The position numbers and the translations under genes are program-made. Positions 50,971 to 64,000 of a stretch of DNA of 64,000 nucleotides are shown here, piece by piece. Within the stretch, counting starts at the first letter, position 1. Every line of letters begins with the position of its first letter. This DNA comes from Clostridia bacterium (GTDB lineage Bacteria; Bacillota; Clostridia; Oscillospirales; Acutalibacteraceae). The stretch is from NCBI GenBank assembly GCA_017473165.1, contig JAFUNA010000020.1, forward strand, positions 50,537-114,536. The letters run 5' to 3'. The notes under the pieces are model-generated. The model was not told the origin of the DNA and did not search any database. It saw only the letters and a list, made by a program, of their open reading frames with translations.

Positions 50971-51318
50971 TTCATTTATATATATCTACGAAAACACTTT
51001 ACTATAACGTTTTTATCTTATGATTGAATTGAATTGTATTATATCAAAAGTCCTATAAAACGGACTTGCAAACGCAAAAAACCGAAGAATCGCAAGCGAA
51101 GAATCGCTTTTTACGGCACACCTTTACAGCATATCATATTGTTAAAAATTGTGCGCTTTCACCGGAATCAAAACCGAATCTTTGTATATCTCATGCGTTG
51201 ACATAACTTGACGACTCCCGGTACGGTCAAGCCAAAATGAAACAAGGGGCTGTTCATTAAAAACAGTCCCTTGTACTTTCAAAATTATAGAGATGCACTG
51301 AAAATGTCCCATGGCATA
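50971..51318. other. Gene-free AT-rich stretch with repeats and a hairpin
   Basis: No convincing gene. It contains a small dyad AAGTCC / GGACTT around 51050, a direct repeat GAAGAATCGC (two copies four bases apart, near 51083-51106), and a 13-bp hairpin ACAAGGGGCTGTT / AACAGTCCCTTGT (51242-51274) of the kind that ends transposon or recombinase genes. With the decayed gene beside it this may be the scar of a lost mobile element. Confidence 0.5.
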
Positions 51319-51347
51319 TTGCATAATGGTGTCAATGATGATAGAAT
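51319..51347 (+). promoter_or_regulatory. Probable promoter of the WYL regulator gene
   Basis: TTGCAT (51319-51324), 17-bp spacer, TAGAAT (51342-51347). The start near 51354 leaves a leader of only about 13 bases before ATG 51367. Confidence 0.6.
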
Positions 51348-51366
51348 AAACACAGAGGTGACTGTT

Positions 51367-52419
51367 ATGGACTCAATGCAGCCGAAAAAACTACTCATAA
51401 TCAACATTCTTGATATTCTCAAAAAGTATACTGACGAAGATCACCGTCTGAGCCAGAAAGAGATTGCGGAGATTCTTGAAACGGAATATGAAATGAAGGC
51501 AGACCGCAAGGCGATCAAGCGAAATCTGATGAACTTGATTGAATTCGGTTATGAAATCGAATACAGTGAAGCTCTGCGACTGGTGAAAAACAAAAAGGGA
51601 GAGCTTGAAGAAAGCTATATTCTTTCCGATTTTTATCTTGTGCGTGATTTTACGGATGCTGAACTCCGTCTGCTGATTGACAGTCTGCTTTTCTCAAAGC
51701 ACATTCCTTATTCACAATGCAAGGAGCTTATCGAGAAAATCGAGGGACTTTCAAACAAGTATTTCAGAAATAAAGTGAAACATATCCGCAACTTACCCGA
51801 GAATATGCCGCAGAACAAGGAGCTTTTCTATACTATTGAAGTTCTTGACGAGGCGATAAGCAAAGGTAACCAAGTGGCTTTCAAGTATAATGACATGGGT
51901 ACGGATAAAAAACAGTATCCACGCAAAAACAGCGAGGGCAATGTGAGAGAATACATTGTAAATTCCTACCAGATGGTTGCCACAAACGGCAGATATTACC
52001 TTGTCTGTAATTATGACAAGTACAACAACGTATCAAACTACCGCCTTGACAGAATAACGGACATCCGTTTGCTTGACACTCCCGTTAAACCGATGAAAAA
52101 GGTTGAGGGTCTTGAACACGGACTTGATTTGCCCAAGCATATGGCGGAGCATATTTATATGTTTGCCGACAAGACAGAAAAGGTCACATTCAGAGCAAAG
52201 AAATACATTGTTACCGAAATTATTGACTGGTTCGGCAAGGACGTTAAATTCAGCGATGAAACCGAAGACGAGGTTACGGCAGAAGTCAGAGTCAGCAAAA
52301 TGGCAATGAAATTCTGGGCAATGCAGTACGGCGAGCATATCACCGTCACCGCTCCCGAAAGCCTTGTGAATGATATAAAAGATGCACTGCAAAAAGCAGT
52401 GGAGAAATACGGAAAGTGA
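51367..52419 (+). CDS. WYL-domain transcriptional regulator
   Basis: Cytoplasmic regulator of 350 residues. An N-terminal winged helix (about 1-75: RLSQKEIAEILETEYEMKADRKAIKRNL) is followed by a WYL domain (about 150-230, with AFKYND..., VNSYQMVATNGRYYLVCNY and YRLDRI) and a C-terminal WCX-type extension. WYL domains sense nucleic-acid or nucleotide ligands and many such regulators control phage-defence genes. Start ATG 51367 has GAGGTG 8 bases upstream. Seven bases separate it from the next gene, and the group continues through a nuclease, so this is probably its regulator. Confidence 0.9.
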   Translation: MDSMQPKKLLIINILDILKKYTDEDHRLSQKEIAEILETEYEMKADRKAIKRNLMNLIEFGYEIEYSEALRLVKNKKGELEESYILSDFYLVRDFTDAELRLLIDSLLFSKHIPYSQCKELIEKIEGLSNKYFRNKVKHIRNLPENMPQNKELFYTIEVLDEAISKGNQVAFKYNDMGTDKKQYPRKNSEGNVREYIVNSYQMVATNGRYYLVCNYDKYNNVSNYRLDRITDIRLLDTPVKPMKKVEGLEHGLDLPKHMAEHIYMFADKTEKVTFRAKKYIVTEIIDWFGKDVKFSDETEDEVTAEVRVSKMAMKFWAMQYGEHITVTAPESLVNDIKDALQKAVEKYGK

Positions 52420-52425
52420 GGAAAT

Positions 52426-52845
52426 ATGAAAACTGTAATTTTAACAAAAGATGAACTCAATGCTGACTTGTTTCAAGACGTGAAATTTTTTTCCGTTGCC
52501 GAAGGCGGTGCTATGGGAATGGCTGGAGAGATTATCTTTCTCAATGGAAATGGAAAAAGCTTTTCTCTGAATTATTTCTTTGGTGATATAACTCCTGATG
52601 ATATTGTTGAAGTTTTTCCTTTACTTGCAAAATGCAAACTCGGGATATTCGGATATGGAAGAACAGTTCCTGAAGGCTGGAACTATGTCAGTTTGGGACA
52701 AGGGAATCATTTGGTTATTTCATCAGATTTATATGATAAATTCAAAGAAAAAACAGCTCATATAAAATACGAACACATACTTTATGGAAAATGGTACGAT
52801 ATAGCAGTTAACATCATAGAAAATAAACAAGGAGATTTGTTATGA
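52426..52845 (+). CDS. Protein of unknown function (139 residues)
   Basis: Not recognised. A soluble alpha/beta protein without signal or membrane segment, Gly-rich near the start (AEGGAMGMAGEIIFLNGNG) and with an aromatic middle (FSLNYFFGD, GRTVPEGWNYVSLG). It begins 6 bases after the WYL gene, with GAGG just upstream, and overlaps the next gene by 4 bases (ATGA), so the three are co-translated. Confidence 0.8.
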   Translation: MKTVILTKDELNADLFQDVKFFSVAEGGAMGMAGEIIFLNGNGKSFSLNYFFGDITPDDIVEVFPLLAKCKLGIFGYGRTVPEGWNYVSLGQGNHLVISSDLYDKFKEKTAHIKYEHILYGKWYDIAVNIIENKQGDLL

Positions 52846-53309
52846 AAGAATTTATGGAAAAATTTTATGAAACAAGAGACACTTGGCTTGACCTTCTGGA
52901 CAATGTCAATGCCTATGTTTTCAGCGAGGAAGAACTTGACGAGGATATGTTTGCAGATGCAATGCGAGGTGCTTTTGAAGTCTTTTCAAAAATGTTTTCG
53001 CTTGAAACCGTAAAAGTTATGGGAAATTTAGAAGCGCTTGGTGTAAATCATCTTATGACTCTTATCGGAACAATGCAGGAATATGCTGCAGACAGATATA
53101 CCGAAGATTCAGAAAACATTGTTTTCAGAGCATCACAGCTCGCAACACGTCTTTTGGTCAACGGAGCTGTAAATGATTTTTTGTGGCACGATGACGGAAT
53201 TTTGCCTGCAGATGAATTGATTGATTATATCTGGCTTGAACTGGATGACAACTATGTGTATGACATCAACAAAGGCGACTTGTCAGAGTTGATTAAGATA
53301 TTAGAGTAA
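52842..53309 (+). CDS. Acidic helical protein of unknown function (155 residues)
   Basis: Not recognised. Strongly acidic and probably all-helical (EEELDEDMFADAMRGAFEVF; ADELIDYIWLELDD), with no signal peptide or membrane segment. Start overlaps the preceding stop by 4 bases, with AAGGAG upstream. Last gene before a fresh promoter. Confidence 0.8.
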   Translation: MKEFMEKFYETRDTWLDLLDNVNAYVFSEEELDEDMFADAMRGAFEVFSKMFSLETVKVMGNLEALGVNHLMTLIGTMQEYAADRYTEDSENIVFRASQLATRLLVNGAVNDFLWHDDGILPADELIDYIWLELDDNYVYDINKGDLSELIKILE

Positions 53310-53339: not shown

Positions 53340-53378
53340 CTAATTATTACACATTAAAATTAAAGGAGAGAATTGATT

Positions 53379-54371
53379 GTGTCAAATGTATTCGTATTCA
53401 GAATTGCAAATGATGTTGATTACGTTAAAAACGAAATCAAGCTAGGGCGCCTTCGTCAAGGTTGGGGTGATTCAACATCGAATTTAACAGGAGTATCTCT
53501 AGATGAGTGGGTTAAAGCAAGGTGTAAAAACAATCATTTTGACGGCGATTATGAATACTATTCATCCAAATACAGAAACCTTGTCAAAATGCTTGATATT
53601 AAATCAGGCGATATTCTTATAATCCCCAAAACACCCGATTACACAAAATTCACAATCTGCAGAGCATCGGGCGAATACACTTTCTGCGAGTCCTTCGGCT
53701 ATAACAAAGACGATTATTATCACACTATCCCCATTGACGTGGATTCAATCCGAGAATTCAGTTATCACGCAAACGAGAAATGCAAAATAATTCACGCAAA
53801 GCTCCGTTCATACCAGTCACCGATTAACAGGGTTTGGTTAGAAAATGTTGTCGAAGCAGCAGAAAGCGTTGTTTCGGCTTGTTCCGATATCTGCGAAAAG
53901 CCAACAGAAACCGTTGTTAAAGAAATCAAATACGATATTTTCAAAAGCTCTGCCATAAGCAGATTCAGAAATCTCGGAAACAGAGAAACTGAAAAAATAG
54001 TTAAGCTCATATTTGAAAATATGGGTTATGAATTCATCGGTTCAAACAGTTATGACAGAGAAGGCGGCGATGCCGATTTGATCTTTGCCGATATTTTTTT
54101 CAGCGAGCTTATGGATTGCGGAGTGAACAGTTCTGAAATATCAGGTAAAGTATTTATTCAGGTTAAAAACAAAGACGGTATGGATTACAATGATATTGAA
54201 GGTGTTGAGCAATTGATTAAGCGCACGCAAAACGAAAATGCCGCAGCTAAAATTCTTATTTCAACTACAGATAATTTTACTCAGAAATGCAAAGACTTGG
54301 CTAACAGAAACAACATCTTACTGATTGACGGCAATGGATTTCTAAAACTTGTGTTCAAATATGTAGATTAA
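53379..54371 (+). CDS. Mrr-like restriction endonuclease with N-terminal reader-like domain
   Basis: Predicted nuclease of 330 residues. The C-terminal half (about 190-330) is an Mrr-type PD-(D/E)xK domain: NRETEKIVKLIFENMGYEF, GGDADLI (Asp231), FIQVKN (Gln261, Lys263), then AAKILISTTDNFTQKCKDLA. The N-terminal half (FRIANDVDYVKNEIKLGRLRQGWG, SGDILIIPKTPDY) looks like a PUA/EVE-like small-molecule or modified-base reader, an architecture seen in type IV restriction enzymes that cut modified DNA. GTG 53379 is preferred to TTG 53373, which is only 4 bases from the ribosome site. No methyltransferase gene is nearby, which fits a type IV role. Confidence 0.82.
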   Translation: MSNVFVFRIANDVDYVKNEIKLGRLRQGWGDSTSNLTGVSLDEWVKARCKNNHFDGDYEYYSSKYRNLVKMLDIKSGDILIIPKTPDYTKFTICRASGEYTFCESFGYNKDDYYHTIPIDVDSIREFSYHANEKCKIIHAKLRSYQSPINRVWLENVVEAAESVVSACSDICEKPTETVVKEIKYDIFKSSAISRFRNLGNRETEKIVKLIFENMGYEFIGSNSYDREGGDADLIFADIFFSELMDCGVNSSEISGKVFIQVKNKDGMDYNDIEGVEQLIKRTQNENAAAKILISTTDNFTQKCKDLANRNNILLIDGNGFLKLVFKYVD

Positions 54372-54648: not shown

Positions 54649-54662
54649 GGAAGGTGATATTT

Positions 54663-55937
54663 ATGAGTGAAAATAACTATACAAAGCGTTTTTCAACACT
54701 ATGTCGTAACAAGGCGAACGACAGATACAGAATCAGCGAAATTTACAGTATGCACGAAAGAACAGAAACGGAAATCTGCAATGCTATTCTATCAAAAAGT
54801 TGCCTACTCTTTCTCGCAGCGCATGAAGTTATAGAATATTGCAAAAATAAAAACATTCCCTACGGCAACGGATTTTCATCAAAATTTCATCTGCTCGCAT
54901 ATTATCTCGGAATATCCGAAGTCAATCCTCTGCCGTGCCATTATGAATGCTCATGCGGCAGCTTTGAATGGGTAAGACCGAGACCGTATTTTGATTTCTA
55001 CGAAACCGATGCAGACGGTTTTGATATGCCTGATAAAGAATGTCCTTTTTGCAAAAAAACAATGCACGGCGACGGTCATAATCTTCCCGAAAGCGAAGAT
55101 GAGATCCATTCAATCAATATTCCAGTCACATCGGAATTCAAGGATGAAATAATTGCTTATCTGAAAGAAAAATTCAACGGTTTTAATGTACGAAATCTGA
55201 AACACGTTGACAAGGATAATATTACTCACGAGCTTAAATATTCTCTGTCTGTTATGCCTGCCGGATGTGAATTGCCCGATGATTGCTTTACCGAGCCTAT
55301 TCCTTACGGAATTCTTGTTCTGAGCGATTATGAACCGCTTGCGGATTTAACCTTACTATCGCAAACAACCGATACCGATTTATCTTCAATTAATTTCAAT
55401 GATTTAAAAATTTATGAATCCTTTTATCATTACGAAGATGATGCAATGTGCGGCGAATGCTCCGTTTACGGTCACTTGAAACTTCCTGTTGATTTCTTTG
55501 TTTTTGAAAAAGCAGAGAATTTTTCGGATTTTGTCCGTCGCTTGGGAATTCTTAAATTTCTGAATCATCTTCCCGAAAAATCTCATGACAGTATTCTCGG
55601 CGGTTGGGAAAGCAAAGGTTGTCAAAACAAAAGAGTACCTATAAATCAAGTTCCGTACTGCATTGAAGAATTTATTGATACTCTTGCGAGAAATTATTTC
55701 GATAATAAAGAAATAAGCAAAATCATTGCTGCAGGAAAATCGGGAAAACCCGCTTCAAAATTCATTGCGGAAAATTATGTGCAGTGGTTTCGCGATTTGG
55801 CGGATAATTGCAGATATCTTGATAATAAACAAAATCTCATTGCCGAAGCAATGGAGATTTACAGAACACAGTATTTTGCAGAAAATTATCCCGTGAAATT
55901 TTTGAAATATATATTAAATAAGATGAACAAGTCATAA
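54663..55937 (+). CDS. Stand-alone PolC-like protein, catalytic aspartates lost
   Basis: A 424-residue protein that aligns, in order, with the polymerase part of Gram-positive DNA polymerase III PolC. Shared blocks: RTETEICNAI (PolC RLEKELNSII), ISEVNPLPCHYECSCG (ITEVNPLPPHYVCPxC), DGFDMPDKECPFC...DGHNLP (SGFDLPDKxCPxCG...DGHDIP), PYGILVLSDYEPLADLT (GGIIVVPDYMDIYDFS), FSDFVRRLG (FSELVQISG), and VPINQVPYCIEEFIDTLARN. The four zinc-type Cys (96, 98, 127, 130) remain. The catalytic DIDLNFSG reads SINIPVTS (Asp to Ser150 and Asn152), and the GSRGSVGSS nucleotide loop is gone, so it cannot polymerise. It lacks the exonuclease, PHP and OB parts. Function unknown; possibly a decoy, or a replisome-binding or nucleotide-sensing factor. 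Confidence 0.82.
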   Translation: MSENNYTKRFSTLCRNKANDRYRISEIYSMHERTETEICNAILSKSCLLFLAAHEVIEYCKNKNIPYGNGFSSKFHLLAYYLGISEVNPLPCHYECSCGSFEWVRPRPYFDFYETDADGFDMPDKECPFCKKTMHGDGHNLPESEDEIHSINIPVTSEFKDEIIAYLKEKFNGFNVRNLKHVDKDNITHELKYSLSVMPAGCELPDDCFTEPIPYGILVLSDYEPLADLTLLSQTTDTDLSSINFNDLKIYESFYHYEDDAMCGECSVYGHLKLPVDFFVFEKAENFSDFVRRLGILKFLNHLPEKSHDSILGGWESKGCQNKRVPINQVPYCIEEFIDTLARNYFDNKEISKIIAAGKSGKPASKFIAENYVQWFRDLADNCRYLDNKQNLIAEAMEIYRTQYFAENYPVKFLKYILNKMNKS

Positions 55938-55942
55938 AAACA

Positions 55943-55975
55943 GCCTGCAACGGTTTTGTTGCAGGCATTTTCATT
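55943..55975. terminator. Bidirectional terminator between converging operons
   Basis: Perfect stem GCCTGCAAC / GTTGCAGGC (55943-55951 and 55958-55966) with a 6-nt loop; ATTTTCATTT follows on the plus strand and TGTTTTTATG on the minus strand. It separates the PolC-like gene from the leftward helicase operon. Confidence 0.93.
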
Positions 55976-56867
55976 TCTTATAGGGTACTCTTGCGGAGGG
56001 TACGAGTTTTGATGCAGGGTCGGTGTGGGTTGCCTGATCGTCAAAGAATATGTTGGCATTGAATGCTTTGAGAACTTCGCTTTTCTTAACTCCGCCAAGG
56101 AAAAACACCTCGTCAATACGAACATTCCACGCACGCAGAGTACGGATAACTCTTTCGTGTGCAGGAGCGTTTCTTGCTGTAACAAGTGCTGTGCGTATAG
56201 GCGATTCGTCTTTGGGGAATTGCTTCTGAATAAGCGAAAGTGTTTTGAGAAGCTTTGCAAACGGACCTTCGGGCAGAGGATTCTGTGCATTCTTCTGCTC
56301 GTGTTCTGCGAACGCTTCAAGTCCTTCCGCCTGAAAAATTCTTTCAGATTCATCGGAGAAAATAACCGCATCGCCGTCGAAAGCAATTCGGATTTGGGGT
56401 ATCTCATCATCGGGATTTATCGGCAGATTTGAGTTGTCACAGATGATGCCCGATGCGATGTTTGCGTTAATTGCTTCCTGCACGTCGCTTTCGTTTGCGG
56501 AAAGGAACAAATCGGTTTTGAATGCACCGAGATAGGGCGAAATCGATGCACCACCGACCAGAGCCGCACGGCTGATATCCAAACCGTAATGCTCGATTGA
56601 ATTAAAAATACGCAAACTTGTGTCGGAGCTGTTTTTGGACATAATGATAATCTCGGTCAGGTATCTGCCGTCTGCATTGAGTTTCTGCAATGCCTTGACA
56701 AGCGGAAATGCCGTGCCGGGTTTCAAAATATCGTTCTCGTGTTCGGTCTGATATTTTGAATATGCCTCCAGACCCTGCTCTTCAAATATTCTGTTTTCTT
56801 CTTCAAGGTCAAACAGTGCTCTTGATGATACGCCGATAACGAGTTTATCTTCCAAAGTTACTGCCAT
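55971..56867 (-). CDS. Cytosolic 5'-nucleotidase (NT5C1-like family)
   Basis: Nucleoside monophosphate phosphatase of 298 residues. The chain matches the bacterial relatives of cytosolic 5'-nucleotidase 1: VSSRALFDLEEENRIFEEQG, KPGTAFPLVKALQKLN, IIIMSKNSSDTSLRIFNSI, HYGLDISRAALVGG, the HAD-like IAFDGDAVIFSDESERIF, ALVTARNAPAHERVIRTL, and FLGGVKKSEVLKAFNANIFFDD. All HAD catalytic parts are in place (Asp nucleophile in FDGDA). Start 56867 follows AAGGGGTG. Last gene of the helicase operon, 35 bases after the LRR gene. It may adjust nucleotide pools or deplete AMP or dNMP; the latter is inference. Confidence 0.9.
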   Translation of the reverse strand: MAVTLEDKLVIGVSSRALFDLEEENRIFEEQGLEAYSKYQTEHENDILKPGTAFPLVKALQKLNADGRYLTEIIIMSKNSSDTSLRIFNSIEHYGLDISRAALVGGASISPYLGAFKTDLFLSANESDVQEAINANIASGIICDNSNLPINPDDEIPQIRIAFDGDAVIFSDESERIFQAEGLEAFAEHEQKNAQNPLPEGPFAKLLKTLSLIQKQFPKDESPIRTALVTARNAPAHERVIRTLRAWNVRIDEVFFLGGVKKSEVLKAFNANIFFDDQATHTDPASKLVPSARVPYKK

Positions 56868-56902
56868 AATAAACACCCCTTGTGTTATATGCTTTTATAA
56901 TA

Positions 56903-57790
56903 TTATTTTTCTGCGGATTTGTAAATACCGAAAACGGAGTTCACTTTTTCAATTGAAAGATTATTGCAAGGCAAGAATTTAATTTTGTGTTTGTTTGCAT
57001 ACATCTCTGCAAATGAACCGCTTTTGCCTGCGATAATCATATTCGGGTTGGCATCGTAAAAAGCGGATTTCGAAATACTTATAACCGACGGCGGAATAAA
57101 AATCATTTCAAGCTTTTTGCACTTTTCAAAAGTATAAGGCATAATCGCTTCAACCGCAGGAGGAATTGCGATAAAACGGATTGGCGTAAACGAAAATGCA
57201 TCCGATGCGATTTCACGGACATTTTTCGGGAGAATTATATATTCGAGGTTTTTGCATCCGCTGAAAGCCTTTTTGCCTATAACCCTGACTTTTTCATTAA
57301 GTTCAGCCTTTTCAAGGTTTTCGCAGTTCATAAAGCTTTCGGGTTGAATTTTTCCCGTGCCGAAGTTTATGTTTTTAAGATATCTGTTTCCGCAGAAGGT
57401 GCTTTTATCAAATGCTATTCCGTCAAACGTCACTCTTTCAGCGGTTGTTCTGTGAGTGTTTATGAGGTATTCGGGCTCGGGAATCAACCTTTCGCAGGGG
57501 TAATAAAAACCGATATCTTGTCTTACCGTTGACGGAATAAAGGCAAAATCTCCTGTTATTTCGGGAAACAGTTCACATTTTTTATAGACATTCAGGCTGT
57601 GGATAAGCTTAACTTTTTTGCCGCAGAAACGGGTCGGAATTTCGACTTCTTTTTGTTCGCCGATAACACCCACAACAGCGATTTCAGGATGCTCGGTTTT
57701 TATTTCGTTGCCTCTTAATTCTTTGAATTCACAACAGTTATAAAGCAGTTTGCCGTCTGTTATGAGAACACGGTTTAGCGGACACAGCAT
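56903..57790 (-). CDS. Cytoplasmic LRR_5 (BspA-type) repeat protein
   Basis: Protein of 295 residues without signal peptide or membrane span. The second half is LRR_5 repeats (NCENLEKAELNEKVRVIGKK, FSGCKNLEYIILPKNVREIA, FEKCKKLEMIFIPPSVISIS); the first half is Cys-containing and not recognised. LRR_5 proteins are usually secreted, as are the other two in this window, so an internal form is unusual and suggests an intracellular ligand-binding role. It starts 3 bases after the VWA gene with GAGGTG upstream, so it belongs to the operon. Confidence 0.86.
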   Translation of the reverse strand: MLCPLNRVLITDGKLLYNCCEFKELRGNEIKTEHPEIAVVGVIGEQKEVEIPTRFCGKKVKLIHSLNVYKKCELFPEITGDFAFIPSTVRQDIGFYYPCERLIPEPEYLINTHRTTAERVTFDGIAFDKSTFCGNRYLKNINFGTGKIQPESFMNCENLEKAELNEKVRVIGKKAFSGCKNLEYIILPKNVREIASDAFSFTPIRFIAIPPAVEAIMPYTFEKCKKLEMIFIPPSVISISKSAFYDANPNMIIAGKSGSFAEMYANKHKIKFLPCNNLSIEKVNSVFGIYKSAEK

Positions 57791-57793
57791 TTT

Positions 57794-59080
57794 TTACACC
57801 TCAATTCTTGCAATTTTGCCCCACGGGGGTTCAACATCTTTATTGTTCAGAATCCACAAAACGGGGATTCCGTTTGATTTTTCTTTATCGGGAAACGGAG
57901 CATAACCGTCGGTCAGGATTATTATGCTCGCAGGCGGTTCGTCGGTCATATTCTCGGCAACATATTTGAATATGACCTCGAAATCCGTACCTCCCCCGCC
58001 TTTCGGTTTGATAACAATAAACTCATCCTCATCAGAAAAAGGTTCGGGTTCTGTTACGGCTGCATCGAAAAATCCGAGAAGACCTTCAAGCTTGCCATTG
58101 AACTGGTCGATTGCGCCTTTGACTTCGGAATAAGCGGCGGTTATCATATCGTCGGACATTGAACCTGATGTATCAATCATAAAAAGAATATTTTTAACTT
58201 TTTCGTCTTTTTCGTTAAAATCGGGCAGAAAGAAATCGGAATCGCCGAATCTTCTGTCGGGCGGACTGAACGAATAATCACAGATTTCTTCCTGCACAAA
58301 TTCATTCAGGATTGAACGCCAATCTGTCTGCGGTTTTCGGAGTTCTTTGATTATCCTCTTTGCAAAAGCAGGGAGTAAACCTCTTTGGTCTAACGGATCT
58401 CGGATACTGACAGCCTCTGCCGCATCTATAATCCTCTTTTGCCATTCTTCGCGCAAAGTGTTATCATCGGCAGTGTTTTTCCATTTTTCGTGGTCATCAA
58501 AAACACCGTTGCCGTTACTGTCGGAATCGTCGGAACCGCCGTCCCCGCCATTCTTGCCACCCGGAGCGCCTCCGTTACCTTTCACTTTGCTTCCCGGCAT
58601 TTTATTTTTTGGTTTTTTACCATTCATCGCAGGCAGCATGGCATAAACCTCTTCTGCGGTAAATTTTGCGCCCTCTTTGCCGTCGGGCGTTTCGTGCATA
58701 AGCTCGCCGTATTGACCCAGATGAATGTTTTTTCTGTTGCCGCCCATTGATTCGAGAATGATTGAATTTACCACTATATCGCAGGCAATATTGAATTTTT
58801 CGGGTTCAAAATCACCGCTTCGTGAACAGTGCTGCAAAGCAACGTGAAGAATTTCGTGCATCATAACAATATCAATCTGCGGATCGGTCAGATTTTCAAG
58901 AAAATCGGGGCCGAAATATATCCTCACACCGTCTGTTGCGGCGGTTTCGCATTCTTCGTCAATCGTCAGCACCATATGCATCAGCAGCAGACCGTAAAAT
59001 CCGTTTGTGCAAAGCAGACGCAGCCTTGACTTCATTAGTCTCATTGAATATTCACGGATTTTCTGTTCAGACAGTTCCAT
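57794..59080 (-). CDS. DUF2201-type zincin-like plus VWA domain protein
   Basis: Protein of 428 residues with two domains. The N-terminal region has MMHEILHVALQH (residues 73-84; HExxH at 75-79), a zinc metallopeptidase-type motif. A Gly/Asp/Ser-rich linker spans about 165-192. The C-terminal half is a von Willebrand A-like domain whose metal-ion site begins DTSGSMS at 303-309, with GGGGTDF and ILTDGYAPFP completing it. Proteins of this build partner MoxR ATPases, and the MoxR gene overlaps it by 14 bases. Start 59080 is set by AAGGAA upstream; the extension to 59116 lies inside the MoxR gene. Whether it cleaves protein is not shown. Confidence 0.92.
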   Translation of the reverse strand: MELSEQKIREYSMRLMKSRLRLLCTNGFYGLLLMHMVLTIDEECETAATDGVRIYFGPDFLENLTDPQIDIVMMHEILHVALQHCSRSGDFEPEKFNIACDIVVNSIILESMGGNRKNIHLGQYGELMHETPDGKEGAKFTAEEVYAMLPAMNGKKPKNKMPGSKVKGNGGAPGGKNGGDGGSDDSDSNGNGVFDDHEKWKNTADDNTLREEWQKRIIDAAEAVSIRDPLDQRGLLPAFAKRIIKELRKPQTDWRSILNEFVQEEICDYSFSPPDRRFGDSDFFLPDFNEKDEKVKNILFMIDTSGSMSDDMITAAYSEVKGAIDQFNGKLEGLLGFFDAAVTEPEPFSDEDEFIVIKPKGGGGTDFEVIFKYVAENMTDEPPASIIILTDGYAPFPDKEKSNGIPVLWILNNKDVEPPWGKIARIEV

Positions 59081-60182
59081 TGAGCAGCCTTCCTTTCGTC
59101 TGAAGCCACCTTGCAAATTCGGGAATCTGCATCAGCCTTGATTTGTAGCCGTCTTCTATGTACATATAATCTTTAAGCAATACGGCAGAAAAATCCGCAG
59201 GCAGCTTTTCGGCATATACAATCGAATTTGCGATTCTCTGCATTTCGTCTTTGTGGCTTTGGGCATAGACTGCCATTGCCGAAACAAGAGCATAAAGTGC
59301 ATCGGTTGAATTCGGAACAATCGGCATTTTTCCGTCAAAAACATCTTCGATTGAGGGCAGAGAATTCCACACCTTGCACCACGTTCTGAATTCGATTGCC
59401 GTGCCCGTGCCGACAAGACCTGCAACCATCGGATACATAATCTCAACATTATCATCGACGGAATTGAGCAGATTGCTGACCATTTCCCACGAACGAGGTG
59501 TAGGGAATGCGAGGTCATCCTTGCCGCCGTCAAAGCCCATAAGCATATTCTGCTTGAACGAAAGAAAACCGATAACCTTCGGACTGATTGCGTTTCTGAT
59601 TGCCCATTGCTTCCACGAATTGAAGTTGCCCTTAACCTCAATGTGGCAAAGGCGGTTTGCGAGTGCCTTCGGCATTTTGAACGCTACGGATTTATCCGTC
59701 ACTCTGTTACCTGCGGCTATAACAATGCAGTTATCGGGGAGTTTATGTTCACCGACAACACGGTCAAGCGTTATCTGATAAGCCGCCGCCTGAACGGATT
59801 GCGGTGCTGCCGAAATTTCGTCAAGGAAAAGGATATTCACGATTGAATCATCTGCATCCATCTGAAAAATCTGCGGTCGGAGCCAGATTGCGAGGGTTTT
59901 ATCGGCATTTGCGGTGGGAATACCACGCAGGTCAATGGGATTGAAAAGGAGCAGACGGACATCGGTCACAACGGATTTTTTGCCCGTTTTTGCTTCAATA
60001 TCCTTTGCGAGCTGACGCACAAGCTGGGATTTACCGACACCGGGCGGTCCCCACAGCATAACCGACGGCAAGGTTTTTATTGGTAGACCTGCGTTGATGA
60101 CGCCGCAATACGATTTTGAGAGAATATTTATTGTCTTCTGCACCGTTAAGCTCGGCACACTTGACATTTTCACTTCGTTCAT
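59067..60182 (-). CDS. MoxR-type AAA+ ATPase
   Basis: Cytoplasmic AAA+ ATPase of 371 residues. Walker A GPPGVGKS (45-52), Walker B ILFLDE (117-122), sensor-1-like VIAAGNRVTDKS, the Arg-containing PKALANRLCHIEV, and a long C-terminal lid domain. MoxR ATPases act with a VWA partner as chaperones that remodel or activate a target. Here the partner follows directly, and the helicase precedes it with a 4-base overlap (ATGA), so the likely target lies in the same operon. Confidence 0.94.
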   Translation of the reverse strand: MNEVKMSSVPSLTVQKTINILSKSYCGVINAGLPIKTLPSVMLWGPPGVGKSQLVRQLAKDIEAKTGKKSVVTDVRLLLFNPIDLRGIPTANADKTLAIWLRPQIFQMDADDSIVNILFLDEISAAPQSVQAAAYQITLDRVVGEHKLPDNCIVIAAGNRVTDKSVAFKMPKALANRLCHIEVKGNFNSWKQWAIRNAISPKVIGFLSFKQNMLMGFDGGKDDLAFPTPRSWEMVSNLLNSVDDNVEIMYPMVAGLVGTGTAIEFRTWCKVWNSLPSIEDVFDGKMPIVPNSTDALYALVSAMAVYAQSHKDEMQRIANSIVYAEKLPADFSAVLLKDYMYIEDGYKSRLMQIPEFARWLQTKGRLLNGTV

Positions 60183-63100
60183 TCTTTGACCCCCAGTTTT
60201 TTATCAATATTTTTGAGCTGTTTTTTCAGTTCTTCAATTTTATCAACATAGCTTTCATCCTTTGCAAGCTCGGCTTTTATCCCGATTTCTTTTTCACGGA
60301 GCTTTTCTGCGGCATCAGCAAGCTTCCCGATATATTCCGTAAGGCCCTCAAGGTAGTTATCGATTCGGATTATTGTTCCGACCTCAGTATCGCCGAGATT
60401 GACATAGTGTCTGCCTGTATTTTTAAGAATCACAAACGGCTTTTCTTTGAGCATATTCGCAGGAAGAATAACCTTGAATCCCTGATAATCAAGCAGTTCT
60501 TTTTCGGCAGGAATCATATTGTTATTCTGAACGGCATCAAAGATTCGCTTTCGGATTATCTGCCTTTGTGCCTTGTCATATTCACGCTTGTTTGCCTGAT
60601 AGAAATCTCTGTCTGCAACGCATTCATCGGTTATTCTTTTGTTATCTGCAAGCTGTGCAGGGATTGAGTTAAGCTCGTTTTCAAGCGATTCACGGTTTGA
60701 AACAAGACCTCTTTGCAGAGCCATATATTTTTCAAGCTCGTTTGCGGTTTCGACCCTCTTTTTGATAAGCGGATTGCCTACCGCAAGAGCTTTTACTTCG
60801 GCATAGTCAAGCACCGTGCCGTCAATATCCGAGCCGCTTCTCTGCGTGAGCGAGCCCGAAAGCAGCTGGCTGATGAATCTCTGCTTTGTTTCGAGCAGCT
60901 GCCACGAATAGGCATCAAAGCTGCCCTCTGTTATGTACCTGAAAATCTGCACCTTGGGATTCATATTGCCCTGACGCAGGATTCTGCCCTCTCTCTGCAC
61001 CATATCCGCAGGGCGCCACGGCACGTCGATATGATGAAGCGCAATAAGCCTATCCTGAACGTTGACACCCAGACCGAGTTTGAAAGTCGAACCGAGAAGA
61101 ATACGGATTTCGCCGTTTCTGACCTTTCCGAAAAGCTCGCTTCGCTTTTTTTCCGTCTGTGCATCGTGAACGTAGGCGATTGTTTCTTTGGGGATTCCCA
61201 TTGAAATGAGCAGACGTGAAAGTTCGTCATAAATATTAAACGTACCCTTCGGCGTTGAAACGTCGCAGAAAATGAGCTGTGCGCTTTTCTGAAGATATGT
61301 TTTCATATAGATATCAAAAACGTTTTCGGCGCAGCGGTAAACCTTTGAATCATAAGTGAATGCCGCATTCGGCTCGGCAAGGCGCAGATCAAGAGCTGCC
61401 TTTCTGCCGTCAACGGTGATTTTGAGCATATTATCATCTGTTCTCGGCACCATATGATTCCTCACGTCTTCAACTCTGTCGGATATCTGATCAAGATAAG
61501 CCTGAAATCCTTTCGTTTTGGGAATAAGTGCATCTGTATAGCCGTCAAATTCGGGTATGCCCTCCGCACCATCCATTGAATGAAAGTCTGCAACTGAAGC
61601 CAGCAGATTTGTAAGCTCGGGCAAATTGTGAAATTTAGAAAGTCTCGTTGCCATTCGGTATTCACTTGTGTCAACGTCAATCTCAAAGCTGTCCTCTTTT
61701 TCGGCAAACATACCGACCCAGCTGTCAAAACTCTGCAAATCAAGAAGAGCCAATTCACCGCTCTGCAGGTATTTTTGCATAACGTAAACGTCGGTCACGG
61801 AATTTGTTATGGGCGTACCCGTTGCGAAAACAACGCCCCTGCCGTTATTCTGCTTCTGAACGCACTGCACCTTTTCAAGCATTTCGGCGCATTTCTTTGA
61901 GCCGCCCTTTGAAAGACCGAGAACGTTGGCAATTTTTGTTTCAATCGGCAGATTTTTGAAATTGTGAGCCTCGTCAACAAACAGAGTGTTTATACCGAGT
62001 TCATCGAAGAAAACCTCATCGCTCGCAACATACAACGCCCTTTTCAGCTCTTCGCAAGCCTCACGCAGCTTACGGCGTTTTTCCTGAAGGCGTGATGTGT
62101 TCTTAAGGCTGTTACAAAGCTTTTCCGAAACGGAATCAAGCAATTCCTGCAGCTGGCTTTCGTGGAATTCCCTTGAAATTCCGATAAGTTCAAAGCAACT
62201 GTAAGCCATTATCACGGCATCATAGTCGTTATCCCTGATTTTCTCCATAACCTCATCACGATTGTCGGGCTTGAAATTTTTCGGCTCAACGCAGAGAATA
62301 TTTGCCTGAGGATACATTTTGAGAAAAATATCATTCCATTGACCCACAAGGTTATTGGGTACAACGTAAAGATTCTTTTTAGATATGCCCATGCGGCGCA
62401 TTTCCATGCCTGCCGCAACCATAACATAGGTTTTGCCTGCACCAACGTCGTGGGCAAGCAGAGTGTTGGGCGTAGAGAGAATTCTTGCAACTGCGTTTTT
62501 CTGATAAGGATAAAGCTTTATTTCATCGGACATAGTCGGAAATTCAAGAAAAGAACCGTCAAAGATTCTCTTACGAACGCATGCAAACTTTTCTTCGTAA
62601 ATCCGCTCGAGTCTTTCCTTGCGTTTTTCATCCTTCCATATCCATTTCTGAAATTCCTTTATCAGTTTTTTCTGCTTTTCGATGGCAAGTGCGGTTTCAG
62701 CGTTGTTGACAACTCTTTTCTCGCCCGTTGAAGAAGTTGGACTTTTAACGGAATCCGTAACCCTGATTTGCCTTAAATTAAGAGTTCTTTCAATTATGTG
62801 CAGAGCATTTATTCTGCTTGTGCCGTAGGTTGAGTTTGCTTTTGTTGCCATTCTTGTGCCGTTGAATCTGCTTTTGAACCCTATTTCCCACGTGCCTGTA
62901 ATTTCATCGTGTTTTGTCGTTGTGTAATCGTTCCAGCCTGAATAAATATCCTTACAAGGGCAGAAAAGCTCATCAATAAAATCGTCAAGAACGTCGGGCG
63001 GAATCCAGGGCGAGCCAAGAGTAACATAAATATCCTCGCAAGCAACCGATGGAGGGATAACCTTTTCAATCGCTTCAATGTTTGCGTCAAAATAACCGTT

Positions 63101-63655
63101 GAATTCTTTGGTTGCCTTTTTGGCAGCTTTCCATTTTCTCTTGAGATTGCCCGTCAGGTATTCATCGGCGGTTTCCCAGCCTTTATAGAAACACTTGCAC
63201 CACGTTTCGGGATTCTGGTAAATCGAGCCTCTGAGGGTTTCGATAACCGTTTTGCAGGTTTCGCCCGTAATCTGTGAAATATATTCAATATCAACCTTGC
63301 CAAGGTTATTGAGAGATAGAATCAACGCATCGGAAATGCTTTCGGTATGCACACCTGCCGCACGGTCATCGCCTGCAAAGGAATTTTCCCAGTCAAGCGG
63401 CAAATCCATACTTGTAACTTCGGCAACATATCTGTCGTGACGCTCTTTCTTTATGCGTTCTTTTTCGAGCCTTTGTGCCTCTCGATCTTTTTTAATCTGC
63501 TCCTGCCGCTTCCATTCAAGTTCTCTCTGCATCTCACGGAGCGATTCCGCCGCAACGTCAAGATCCTCACTTGAAAGCATATGTCCGAGTTCTCTGATAT
63601 TTTTAAAAAATTCGTTAAATACATCGAATGCCTCGCCTGTCTTTTTTTCAGCCAT
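60179..63655 (-). CDS. Large SF2/SNF2-like helicase
   Basis: Protein of 1158 residues. A Lys/Glu-rich coiled-coil head (about 20-90) leads to a unique N-terminal domain with several Cys (CKCFYKG; FCPCKDIYSGW), then the helicase core: motif I LLAHDVGAGKT (near 405), motif II LFVDEAHNF (near 560), motif III ATGTPITNS (near 615), and motifs V-VI GLGVNVQDR and WRPADMVQREGRILRQGN (near 885), then a coiled-coil tail. The last motif is typical of SNF2-like helicases on plasmids and integrative elements, which are often fused to a DNA methylase; no methylase is present here. Start 63655 follows AAAGGA; ATG 63748 lies on another ribosome site and is rejected. First gene of the operon. Confidence 0.92.
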   Translation of the reverse strand: MAEKKTGEAFDVFNEFFKNIRELGHMLSSEDLDVAAESLREMQRELEWKRQEQIKKDREAQRLEKERIKKERHDRYVAEVTSMDLPLDWENSFAGDDRAAGVHTESISDALILSLNNLGKVDIEYISQITGETCKTVIETLRGSIYQNPETWCKCFYKGWETADEYLTGNLKRKWKAAKKATKEFNGYFDANIEAIEKVIPPSVACEDIYVTLGSPWIPPDVLDDFIDELFCPCKDIYSGWNDYTTTKHDEITGTWEIGFKSRFNGTRMATKANSTYGTSRINALHIIERTLNLRQIRVTDSVKSPTSSTGEKRVVNNAETALAIEKQKKLIKEFQKWIWKDEKRKERLERIYEEKFACVRKRIFDGSFLEFPTMSDEIKLYPYQKNAVARILSTPNTLLAHDVGAGKTYVMVAAGMEMRRMGISKKNLYVVPNNLVGQWNDIFLKMYPQANILCVEPKNFKPDNRDEVMEKIRDNDYDAVIMAYSCFELIGISREFHESQLQELLDSVSEKLCNSLKNTSRLQEKRRKLREACEELKRALYVASDEVFFDELGINTLFVDEAHNFKNLPIETKIANVLGLSKGGSKKCAEMLEKVQCVQKQNNGRGVVFATGTPITNSVTDVYVMQKYLQSGELALLDLQSFDSWVGMFAEKEDSFEIDVDTSEYRMATRLSKFHNLPELTNLLASVADFHSMDGAEGIPEFDGYTDALIPKTKGFQAYLDQISDRVEDVRNHMVPRTDDNMLKITVDGRKAALDLRLAEPNAAFTYDSKVYRCAENVFDIYMKTYLQKSAQLIFCDVSTPKGTFNIYDELSRLLISMGIPKETIAYVHDAQTEKKRSELFGKVRNGEIRILLGSTFKLGLGVNVQDRLIALHHIDVPWRPADMVQREGRILRQGNMNPKVQIFRYITEGSFDAYSWQLLETKQRFISQLLSGSLTQRSGSDIDGTVLDYAEVKALAVGNPLIKKRVETANELEKYMALQRGLVSNRESLENELNSIPAQLADNKRITDECVADRDFYQANKREYDKAQRQIIRKRIFDAVQNNNMIPAEKELLDYQGFKVILPANMLKEKPFVILKNTGRHYVNLGDTEVGTIIRIDNYLEGLTEYIGKLADAAEKLREKEIGIKAELAKDESYVDKIEELKKQLKNIDKKLGVKE

Positions 63656-64000
63656 AATACAACATCCTTTCTGCTTATAAAATATCATTTTATGTGTCCT
63701 TTTTTCAGGACATCTCAATTCAAAACTATGTAAAACACATAATCTCATCCTCCTTTAAGAAAATTCCGCAATCCAATATGTGTCTTCCCAAAAAGAATGT
63801 AAGAAATTGGTTTGGGGAAATTTTTCTGAGCAGAAGTTTTGTTGTATATCAACAAAAAGAAAAAGGGGCTGTAAAAAAACAGTCTGAATAAAAAAAGAAC
63901 TACAAGTCTATCAAAAAAGGATAGGCTTGTAGTCTTTTTGTGATATAATTAACGTGCTAATGAAAAATAATATCACAGAAAAATATAATATACCATATCA
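63656..64000. other. Upstream region of the helicase operon, possible mobile-element end
   Basis: No gene found. On the minus strand a strong AAAGGAGG near 63750 precedes a four-codon frame (ATG TGT TTT ACA TAG), and a small hairpin TGTCCT / AGGACA (63695-63712) lies before the helicase ribosome site. Further right is GGGGCTGTAAAAAAACAGTC (63865-63884), like the ends of some clostridial insertion sequences, then a long hairpin and a TTTTTGTGATATAATT stretch with a good -10. Confidence 0.5.
63899..63938. terminator. Bidirectional terminator at the right edge
   Basis: Stem ACTACAAGTCTATC / GATAGGCTTGTAGT (63899-63912 and 63920-63933, one G-U pair) with a 7-nt loop and T runs on both strands (CTTTTTG; TCTTTTTTT). 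It likely isolates the helicase operon from a gene beyond the window. Confidence 0.88.

Follow-up and report, generated by a model that had tools for sequence, protein, structure and literature searches.

Replicative DNA polymerases of the PolC type are described as antibiotic targets, and D972 and D974 as catalytic in the E. faecium enzyme (PMC12592400). PolCs without the Exo domain have been reported from Clostridia and Negativicutes, and additional PolC copies have been reported as well; the data set described there had fragments without an intact active site removed, so that inactivated copies lie outside it (PMC3919608). Inactivated polymerases have already been described in the Y family, and the account that names them mentions, in its passages on the C family, inactivation of the PHP domain only (PMC12926913). 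Our own literature search covered titles and the beginnings of abstracts, with few subscription papers, and among the matches listed there was no dead free-standing PolC or other C-family replicase.

P0001, a protein of 424 aa encoded in the window (the whole stretch of 64,000 nucleotides analysed here), shares with PolC the collinear palm N-part, the finger part, the zinc-type cysteines, and the signature blocks, but lacks the PHP and Exo domains, the part that follows the fingers, and the active-site and nucleotide-binding motifs, and is far shorter (424 vs 1430 aa). Judging from these comparisons, it is very probably a catalytically dead, free-standing mini-PolC that sits in a variable, WYL-linked island and belongs to a recurrent class. 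With ImuB and the other inactivated Y-family polymerases it may share the notion of a polymerase that has lost its activity but is retained as a partner, whereas ImuB belongs to another polymerase family and is tied to DnaE2 and RecA modules (PMC12926913). As to an ImuB-like setting, no other C-family polymerase is found in the window, while the plasmid pCY186, discussed below, has a PolC. The BrxR/WYL regulators, of whose homologues 48% are reported to co-localise with known defence systems, likewise stand beside variable, nuclease-bearing genes (PMC9122601), the likeness being one of setting. The SNF2-type protein of the window matches models of the DISARM protein DrmD in part, and its homologue in one related genome (G073) scores 57.8 bits, far under the NCBIfam cut-off of 610.

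Comparison of P0001 with PolC

A first-pass annotation had taken P0001 for a free-standing derivative of PolC that has lost its active site, and sequence comparison bears this out. The alignment of P0001 with 30 PolCs by hhalign is collinear (E 6.3e-21, 385 columns, 25% identity), residues 9-414 aligning on 497-966 of L002, a fragment of the genome's own PolC. DNA_pol3_alpha (PF07733) is the sole Pfam domain in the protein (E 3.5e-7), and the PDB sequences 3f2b and 9qpc are matched with E 8.8e-11 and 1.4e-8, respectively. The NCBIfam PolC model (NF001688) matches at 1.2e-14, far under its whole-protein cut-off because the match is partial. The near-identity to PolC noted earlier holds for short blocks only, the overall identity being 21-25% and the catalytic middle heavily deleted. 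Of the positions invariant (95%) among 32 housekeeping PolCs, counted over aligned positions, P0001 keeps 25/49 in the palm N-part, 12/33 in the middle, and 12/52 in the finger part.

The aspartates of the PolC motif DIDL align with Ser150 and Asn152, as had been claimed, the longer motif PDIDLNF reading HSINIPV in P0001. The loss of the GSRGSVGSS loop is likewise confirmed, YGNGFSSKF standing in its place, and there is no counterpart of KRTTGQHPGG or of the third aspartate, that of KLD. The four zinc-type cysteines, C96, C98, C127, and C130, are kept. The alignment begins after the PHP domain of PolC, which is absent, and stops at residue 966 of the 1116 of the own-PolC fragment, with 10 further residues in P0001. 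The clamp-binding region of PolC presumably lies after the fingers, in the part that P0001 lacks; simple competition for the clamp is therefore unlikely, given the position that we assume for this site.

The host has a full-size PolC of its own outside the window, in a frame of 1430 aa on contig C14. We have also considered that P0001 might be a fragment of the host polC, and rejected this in view of an identity of 34% over residues 13-143, with no near identity. Nor are its relatives merely disrupted pieces of the host polC, since the remnants found in the genus are of the same gene at the same locus and the frames of P0002 and P0003, described below, are intact.

The open reading frame agrees with the first-pass annotation in start, length, and intactness (Table 1). 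Its synonymous-codon score of 0.036 is far above the composition null (-0.179, sd 0.033, 500 draws) and below the score of every one of the 12 reference genes in the window (0.052 to 0.214), so that P0001 is a coding gene or one that was lost only recently. Other genes of the island have scores like that of P0001 (WYL 0.044, Mrr 0.045).

Table 1. Features of P0001 and of the surrounding island (window coordinates)
Feature	Position	Strand	Remark
WYL/WCX regulator	51271..52419	+	recurrent neighbour of short and dead PolCs
139-aa island ORF, no assigned family	52426..52845	+	
155-aa island ORF, no assigned family	52842..53309	+	
Mrr_cat nuclease	53373..54371	+	PADLOC candidate PDC-S02 match, E 9.2e-7
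Shine-Dalgarno-like GGAAGGTG before ATG 54663	54649..54656	+	read by eye
P0001, very probably a dead mini-PolC, 424 aa	54663..55937	+	palm N-part with zinc knuckles and finger-side C-part; catalytic middle lost
First zinc knuckle of P0001, C96-S-C98 (PolC: C-x-x-C)	54948..54956	+	
Second zinc knuckle of P0001, C127-P-F-C130	55041..55052	+	
Ser150-Ile-Asn152 of P0001, replacing catalytic DID of PolC	55110..55118	+	
Finger-side C-terminal part of P0001, residues 311-414	55593..55904	+	ends approximately as the short PolCs of G073 and G258
Terminator-like hairpin separating P0001 from the convergent nucleotidase gene	55943..55966	+	
5'-nucleotidase family gene	55971..56876	-	kept flank of the variable site
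BspA-type LRR protein, island gene	56903..57790	-	
DUF2201 metallopeptidase/VWA protein	57794..59116	-	
371-aa ORF, putative AAA ATPase	59067..60182	-	weak PADLOC matches to ATPases
SNF2-type helicase, weak DrmD matches	60179..63748	-	57% identical to the helicase next to the dead short PolC in G073

The island and its history in sister genomes

P0001 sits in a WYL-linked, variable, defence-like island, in which the WYL regulator and the Mrr nuclease stand beside it as previously described. The defence-type genes beside the WYL gene are those of Mrr, with its PDC-S02 match, and of the DrmD-like helicase, and PDDEXK_4 was found in other WYL islands. No complete known defence system was called at the island; in a PADLOC scan of eight window proteins one helicase partly matches DISARM models, the contig ending with the window. 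Among anti-phage models, the best for P0001 was PDC-M27C (E 0.03), and none matched the short PolC of G073 at E 0.001. The 371-aa protein, which we take to be a MoxR-type AAA ATPase, is 76% identical (226 aa) to one beside that dead short PolC.

No other full-length P0001 was found among 45 genomes of the genus, the own genome included, and the Mrr gene of the island was found in the own genome only (1/45). The nucleotidase gene downstream is present in 5/45, and the site of P0001 is a variable slot, which holds other genes or none in the sister genomes. In G662, a 56-aa C-terminal piece of P0001 (68% identical) lies beside the nucleotidase gene. One of two contigs of G671 has 15 N-terminal codons of P0001 with a stop, followed by the terminator region, while on the other an LRR-like and a WG-repeat gene fill the slot; these contigs (L077, L078) share the same nucleotidase end with different island contents, which may reflect a strain mixture or a duplicated locus. 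G675 has a 274-aa gene in the slot, WG-like by eye and without a Pfam match, and no P0001-like sequence is present in G145. The simplest account is that the common ancestor of these species had the P0001 gene, with at least two losses since.

The comparison of P0001 with the sister remnant gives a pN/pS of 0.86 over 50 codons, which, coming from the sole usable sister sequence, tells little. The neighbouring genes have values of 0.05 to 0.19, the exception being the 139-aa ORF (0.76, four changes in all). This ORF (window 52426-52845; L078:1761-2180) is nearly identical between the genome studied here (G000) and G671, with a dS of 0.012, and the genes flanking it have dS values of 0.31 and 0.48; it is likely that the segment containing it recombined recently.

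Short and inactivated polymerases in other genomes

In 300 genomes of the family no full-length relative of P0001 was seen among the matches listed by E value, the best non-self match of these (E 3.8e-17) covering residues 29-177 only. The C-terminal half matched 16 of 394 genomes of the order, the own genome included; 12 of the 15 other matches lie in frames of 1147-1444 aa, and the remaining three in frames of 94, 465, and 445 aa. P0001 matched nothing in viral contigs and four loci in genome contigs, all of them matching PolC, and while 21 records among phages and 16 among plasmids matched, none spans 80% of the query. Among viral sequences no relative was found with the G073 protein, with alignment A1, or with the own PolC as query, and none with P0002 or P0003; these negatives say little on a phage origin of the short PolCs, since even PolC matched nothing there. 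A 93-aa frame in G259 (L060:5331-5612), antisense to a longer ORF, matches residues 166-220 of P0001 with 36% identity (E 1.3e-6 in a small set, 0.00135 in the genome), and may be a chance match or another remnant.

A short second PolC is present in at least five of the 300 family genomes (G073, G146, G161, G209, and G258), five being a lower bound because genomes with one match were not viewed singly and 33/300 gave no match. Ten other two-match genomes were rejected as carriers after inspection of the frames: in seven (G018, G027, G062, G079, G150, G229, and G246) the two matches are pieces on separate contigs, G111 and G158 have two adjoining frames on one contig, and in G105 both matches fall within a single frame. 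By Pfam, PHP, palm, and finger domains are present in all three short PolCs that were scanned (G073, G146, and G161). Those of G073 and G258, the latter with its start cut by the contig end, stop right after the fingers, and the other three extend approximately 40 to 100 residues more. The G073 protein is dead, with YLVL for DIDL and KRTTGQHPGG lost; that of G258 has lost KRTTGQHPGG and kept DIDL, and those of G146, G161, and G209 keep DIDL or DFDL, their PHP motifs being altered to differing degrees. With both aspartates kept in four of the five, some short PolCs may be working polymerases.

A homologue of the window's WYL protein occurs in 24/300 family genomes (E up to 1e-60) and in four of the five short-PolC genomes (hypergeometric 1.3e-4, against a background of 23/299), two of the four sharing a genus and the G209 match being of the weaker, 41% kind. 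The WYL gene lies within 10 kb of the short PolC in G073, G146, and G258, one of which is dead (G073); an association between WYL and PolCs that are shortened or dead is therefore seen repeatedly. The G073 cluster also holds relatives of the window helicase, the AAA protein, and the DUF2201 gene. The short PolC of G161 follows a PDDEXK_4 gene near nusA, and that of G209 adjoins an AAA gene of the kind seen in five WYL islands. In genus g73 (L058:3-2707, L119:8294-17545) the short PolC pair is 57% identical, the WYL pair 98%, and the PDDEXK pair 92%, with a pN/pS of 0.35 for the short PolCs at saturated synonymous sites; such divergence against conserved neighbours would fit conflict. At the same loci, a family of 254/260 aa is only 51% identical.

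Other housekeeping paralogues also occur in WYL islands, as in G079 (L113:8797-11392), where a 442-aa DnaG-type primase is found with a shortened FtsH-like AAA gene. The WYL island of G184 (L121:11824-13374) holds a PrimPol-like protein (NCBIfam PrimPol_Msp 2.2e-28, under the cut-off). In G133, of another genus, nucleotidase and WYL genes are adjacent (L105:8779-10897), the WYL protein being 85% identical to that of the window.

P0002 was detected when the regions surrounding the WYL gene were scanned in the other 23 genomes that have one. It is a frame of 357 aa in G227 that resembles PolC weakly over two collinear stretches, one in the palm N-part and one in the finger part, and it has no zinc module. 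It scores 14.1 bits with the PolC profile, 17.3 with the short-PolC profile, and 22.7 with a mixed profile that includes P0001, the best of 7,230 shuffles reaching 5.0, 7.2, and 6.3 bits, respectively. On its own against the PDB it finds PolC only at E 0.95, and it has no Pfam and no NCBIfam match. Direct comparison of P0001 with P0002 gives E 0.19 by hhalign and nothing by phmmer, and the two are linked through PolC profiles. A 213-aa gene lies directly upstream of P0002 and a homologue of it (31%) upstream of the P0001 remnant in G671, this family of approximately 210 aa adjoining both (L109:11295-11936 and L078:539-1171). Its FLLREPNT and YHPS motifs recall, as we take it, uracil-DNA glycosylases; a PDB sequence search with the L078 member gave nothing significant.

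P0003 (WP_013283140.1), a 332-aa hypothetical protein of the Butyrivibrio proteoclasticus plasmid pCY186, is a mini-PolC, with 133 bits against the short-PolC profile and a PDB PolC match of 1e-20, in which SIEI replaces DIDL and the zinc module is absent. As a control, 791 frames over 200,958 bases, most of this sequence lying outside WYL islands, were scanned; scores above 10 bits came from PolC frames, from P0003, and from the G662 remnant, which was matched with a profile that includes P0001. The plasmid cluster comprises WYL, dnaX, WP_013283142.1, an AAA ATPase, P0003, a DnaA/Hda gene, a full-length PolC that keeps DIDL, and dnaB. Its WYL protein matches that of the window at 6.5e-76, and its AAA gene is related to one in six loci, namely five WYL islands and the short-PolC contig of G209. 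WP_013283142.1 (480 aa, L146:6149-7591) is a mini-DnaE (6.2e-53 to PDB 3e0d; 281 bits with the DnaE profile) that reads PSYCIRI for PDFDIDF and SPGCGA for GPGRGS; annotated as a hypothetical protein, this dead mini-DnaE shares the cluster with the dead mini-PolC. The DnaE profile (E 0.1) detected no second mini-DnaE in 784 frames of the window, the islands, and pCY186, duplicates included, the other matches being PolCs, short PolCs, P0001, and P0003. The genome paper names pCY186, its main text being without the term "DNA polymerase" (PMC2914790). On another plasmid, p3 of Cetobacterium somerae (L144:2712-5456), a hypothetical protein of 914 aa is a PolC that has diverged strongly.

At the two positions of the DIDL aspartates, the kin of P0001, by which we mean P0002, P0003, and the five short PolCs and not full-length orthologues, have M/E (P0002), S/E (P0003), Y/V (G073), and D/D (the four other short PolCs), P0002 and P0003 thus keeping one acidic residue, Glu, at the second position. 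Replicases reduced to their two ends, with the centre missing, occur repeatedly in the company of WYL genes, namely in two genera belonging to the same family and on the Butyrivibrio plasmid, the WYL linkage of P0002 and P0003 stemming partly from choice, as WYL islands were scanned and the plasmid was fetched for its PolC. A tree separates 32 housekeeping PolCs from the five short PolCs, P0001, and P0002 with an SH-aLRT of 95, P0001 and P0002 being end branches of 10. In a tree of the palm N-part, P0001 is an end branch of 7.3 that groups with the short PolCs at supports of 24 and 18, and the alternative of placing it among the housekeeping PolCs withstands the test (p-AU 0.675). When P0001 and P0002 are left out, the short PolCs form a separate group of five at a support of 94, two members of which are long branches that meet.

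Possible roles of the inactivated polymerases

That catalysis is lost and the outer parts are retained suggests that the surface is what counts. P0001 would keep the surface of the PolC core, with the zinc-bearing palm edge and the finger side, and could soak up or sense an invader factor that attacks the host replicase; alternatively, it might enter and block a competing replisome. Its expression would be controlled by the WYL protein. We tentatively suggest that P0001 may be a replicase mimic in some form; that it is a decoy or sensor in particular is doubtful, and it may have an anti-phage role. Mimicry, as a decoy or sensor, is tentatively favoured over the two alternatives of a relic and of an accessory subunit.

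It is somewhat doubtful that P0001 is a decaying relic, i.e., the last open frame, with no present function, of an island-borne second PolC that shrank stepwise. Such decay would agree with the sister genomes, which keep only the short C-terminal (G662) or N-terminal (G671) pieces, with the pN/pS of the remnant, with the very long branch of P0001, and with a codon score below all reference genes, but 424 codons are open with a score well above the composition null, the palm N-part is the best kept, and intact mini-versions exist elsewhere (P0002 and P0003). An accessory subunit, where the dead core would pair with an active polymerase (host PolC or DnaE, or the plasmid PolC) in a structural or lesion-bypass role, is unlikely: the PolC and DnaE profiles reveal no further polymerase either in the window or near P0002 (L109), even though on pCY186 the dead mini-PolC and mini-DnaE lie near dnaX, the full-length PolC, and dnaB, within the plasmid's own replication cluster, and ImuB offers a described case of an inactive protein that partners DnaE2 (PMC12926913). 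A regulator that uses the zinc-bearing palm edge to bind DNA or RNA, and that is unrelated to the replisome, would account for the zinc-type cysteines of P0001 and for the WYL regulator nearby, but is quite improbable, as P0002 and P0003 keep the palm-edge and finger stretches without the zinc module, and zinc is thus not a common feature.

In favour of mimicry, the presence of both replicase types in inactive form within a single cluster suggests that the replisome is the target. It is conceivable, if less than likely, that inactivated mini-replicases, namely dead mini-PolCs and at times dead mini-DnaEs as well, constitute an unrecognised class of conflict genes linked to WYL and AAA genes, which by mimicking both replicative polymerases of the host would decoy the anti-replicase weapons of invaders or jam rival replisomes. 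The occurrence of pCY186 in a named strain, Butyrivibrio proteoclasticus B316, makes the class testable. The recurrence of these proteins suggests that broken polymerases may serve a purpose not recognised so far; if they are mimics, invader proteins that target PolC would be expected, and bacteria or plasmids would have a new way to guard or attack replication forks.
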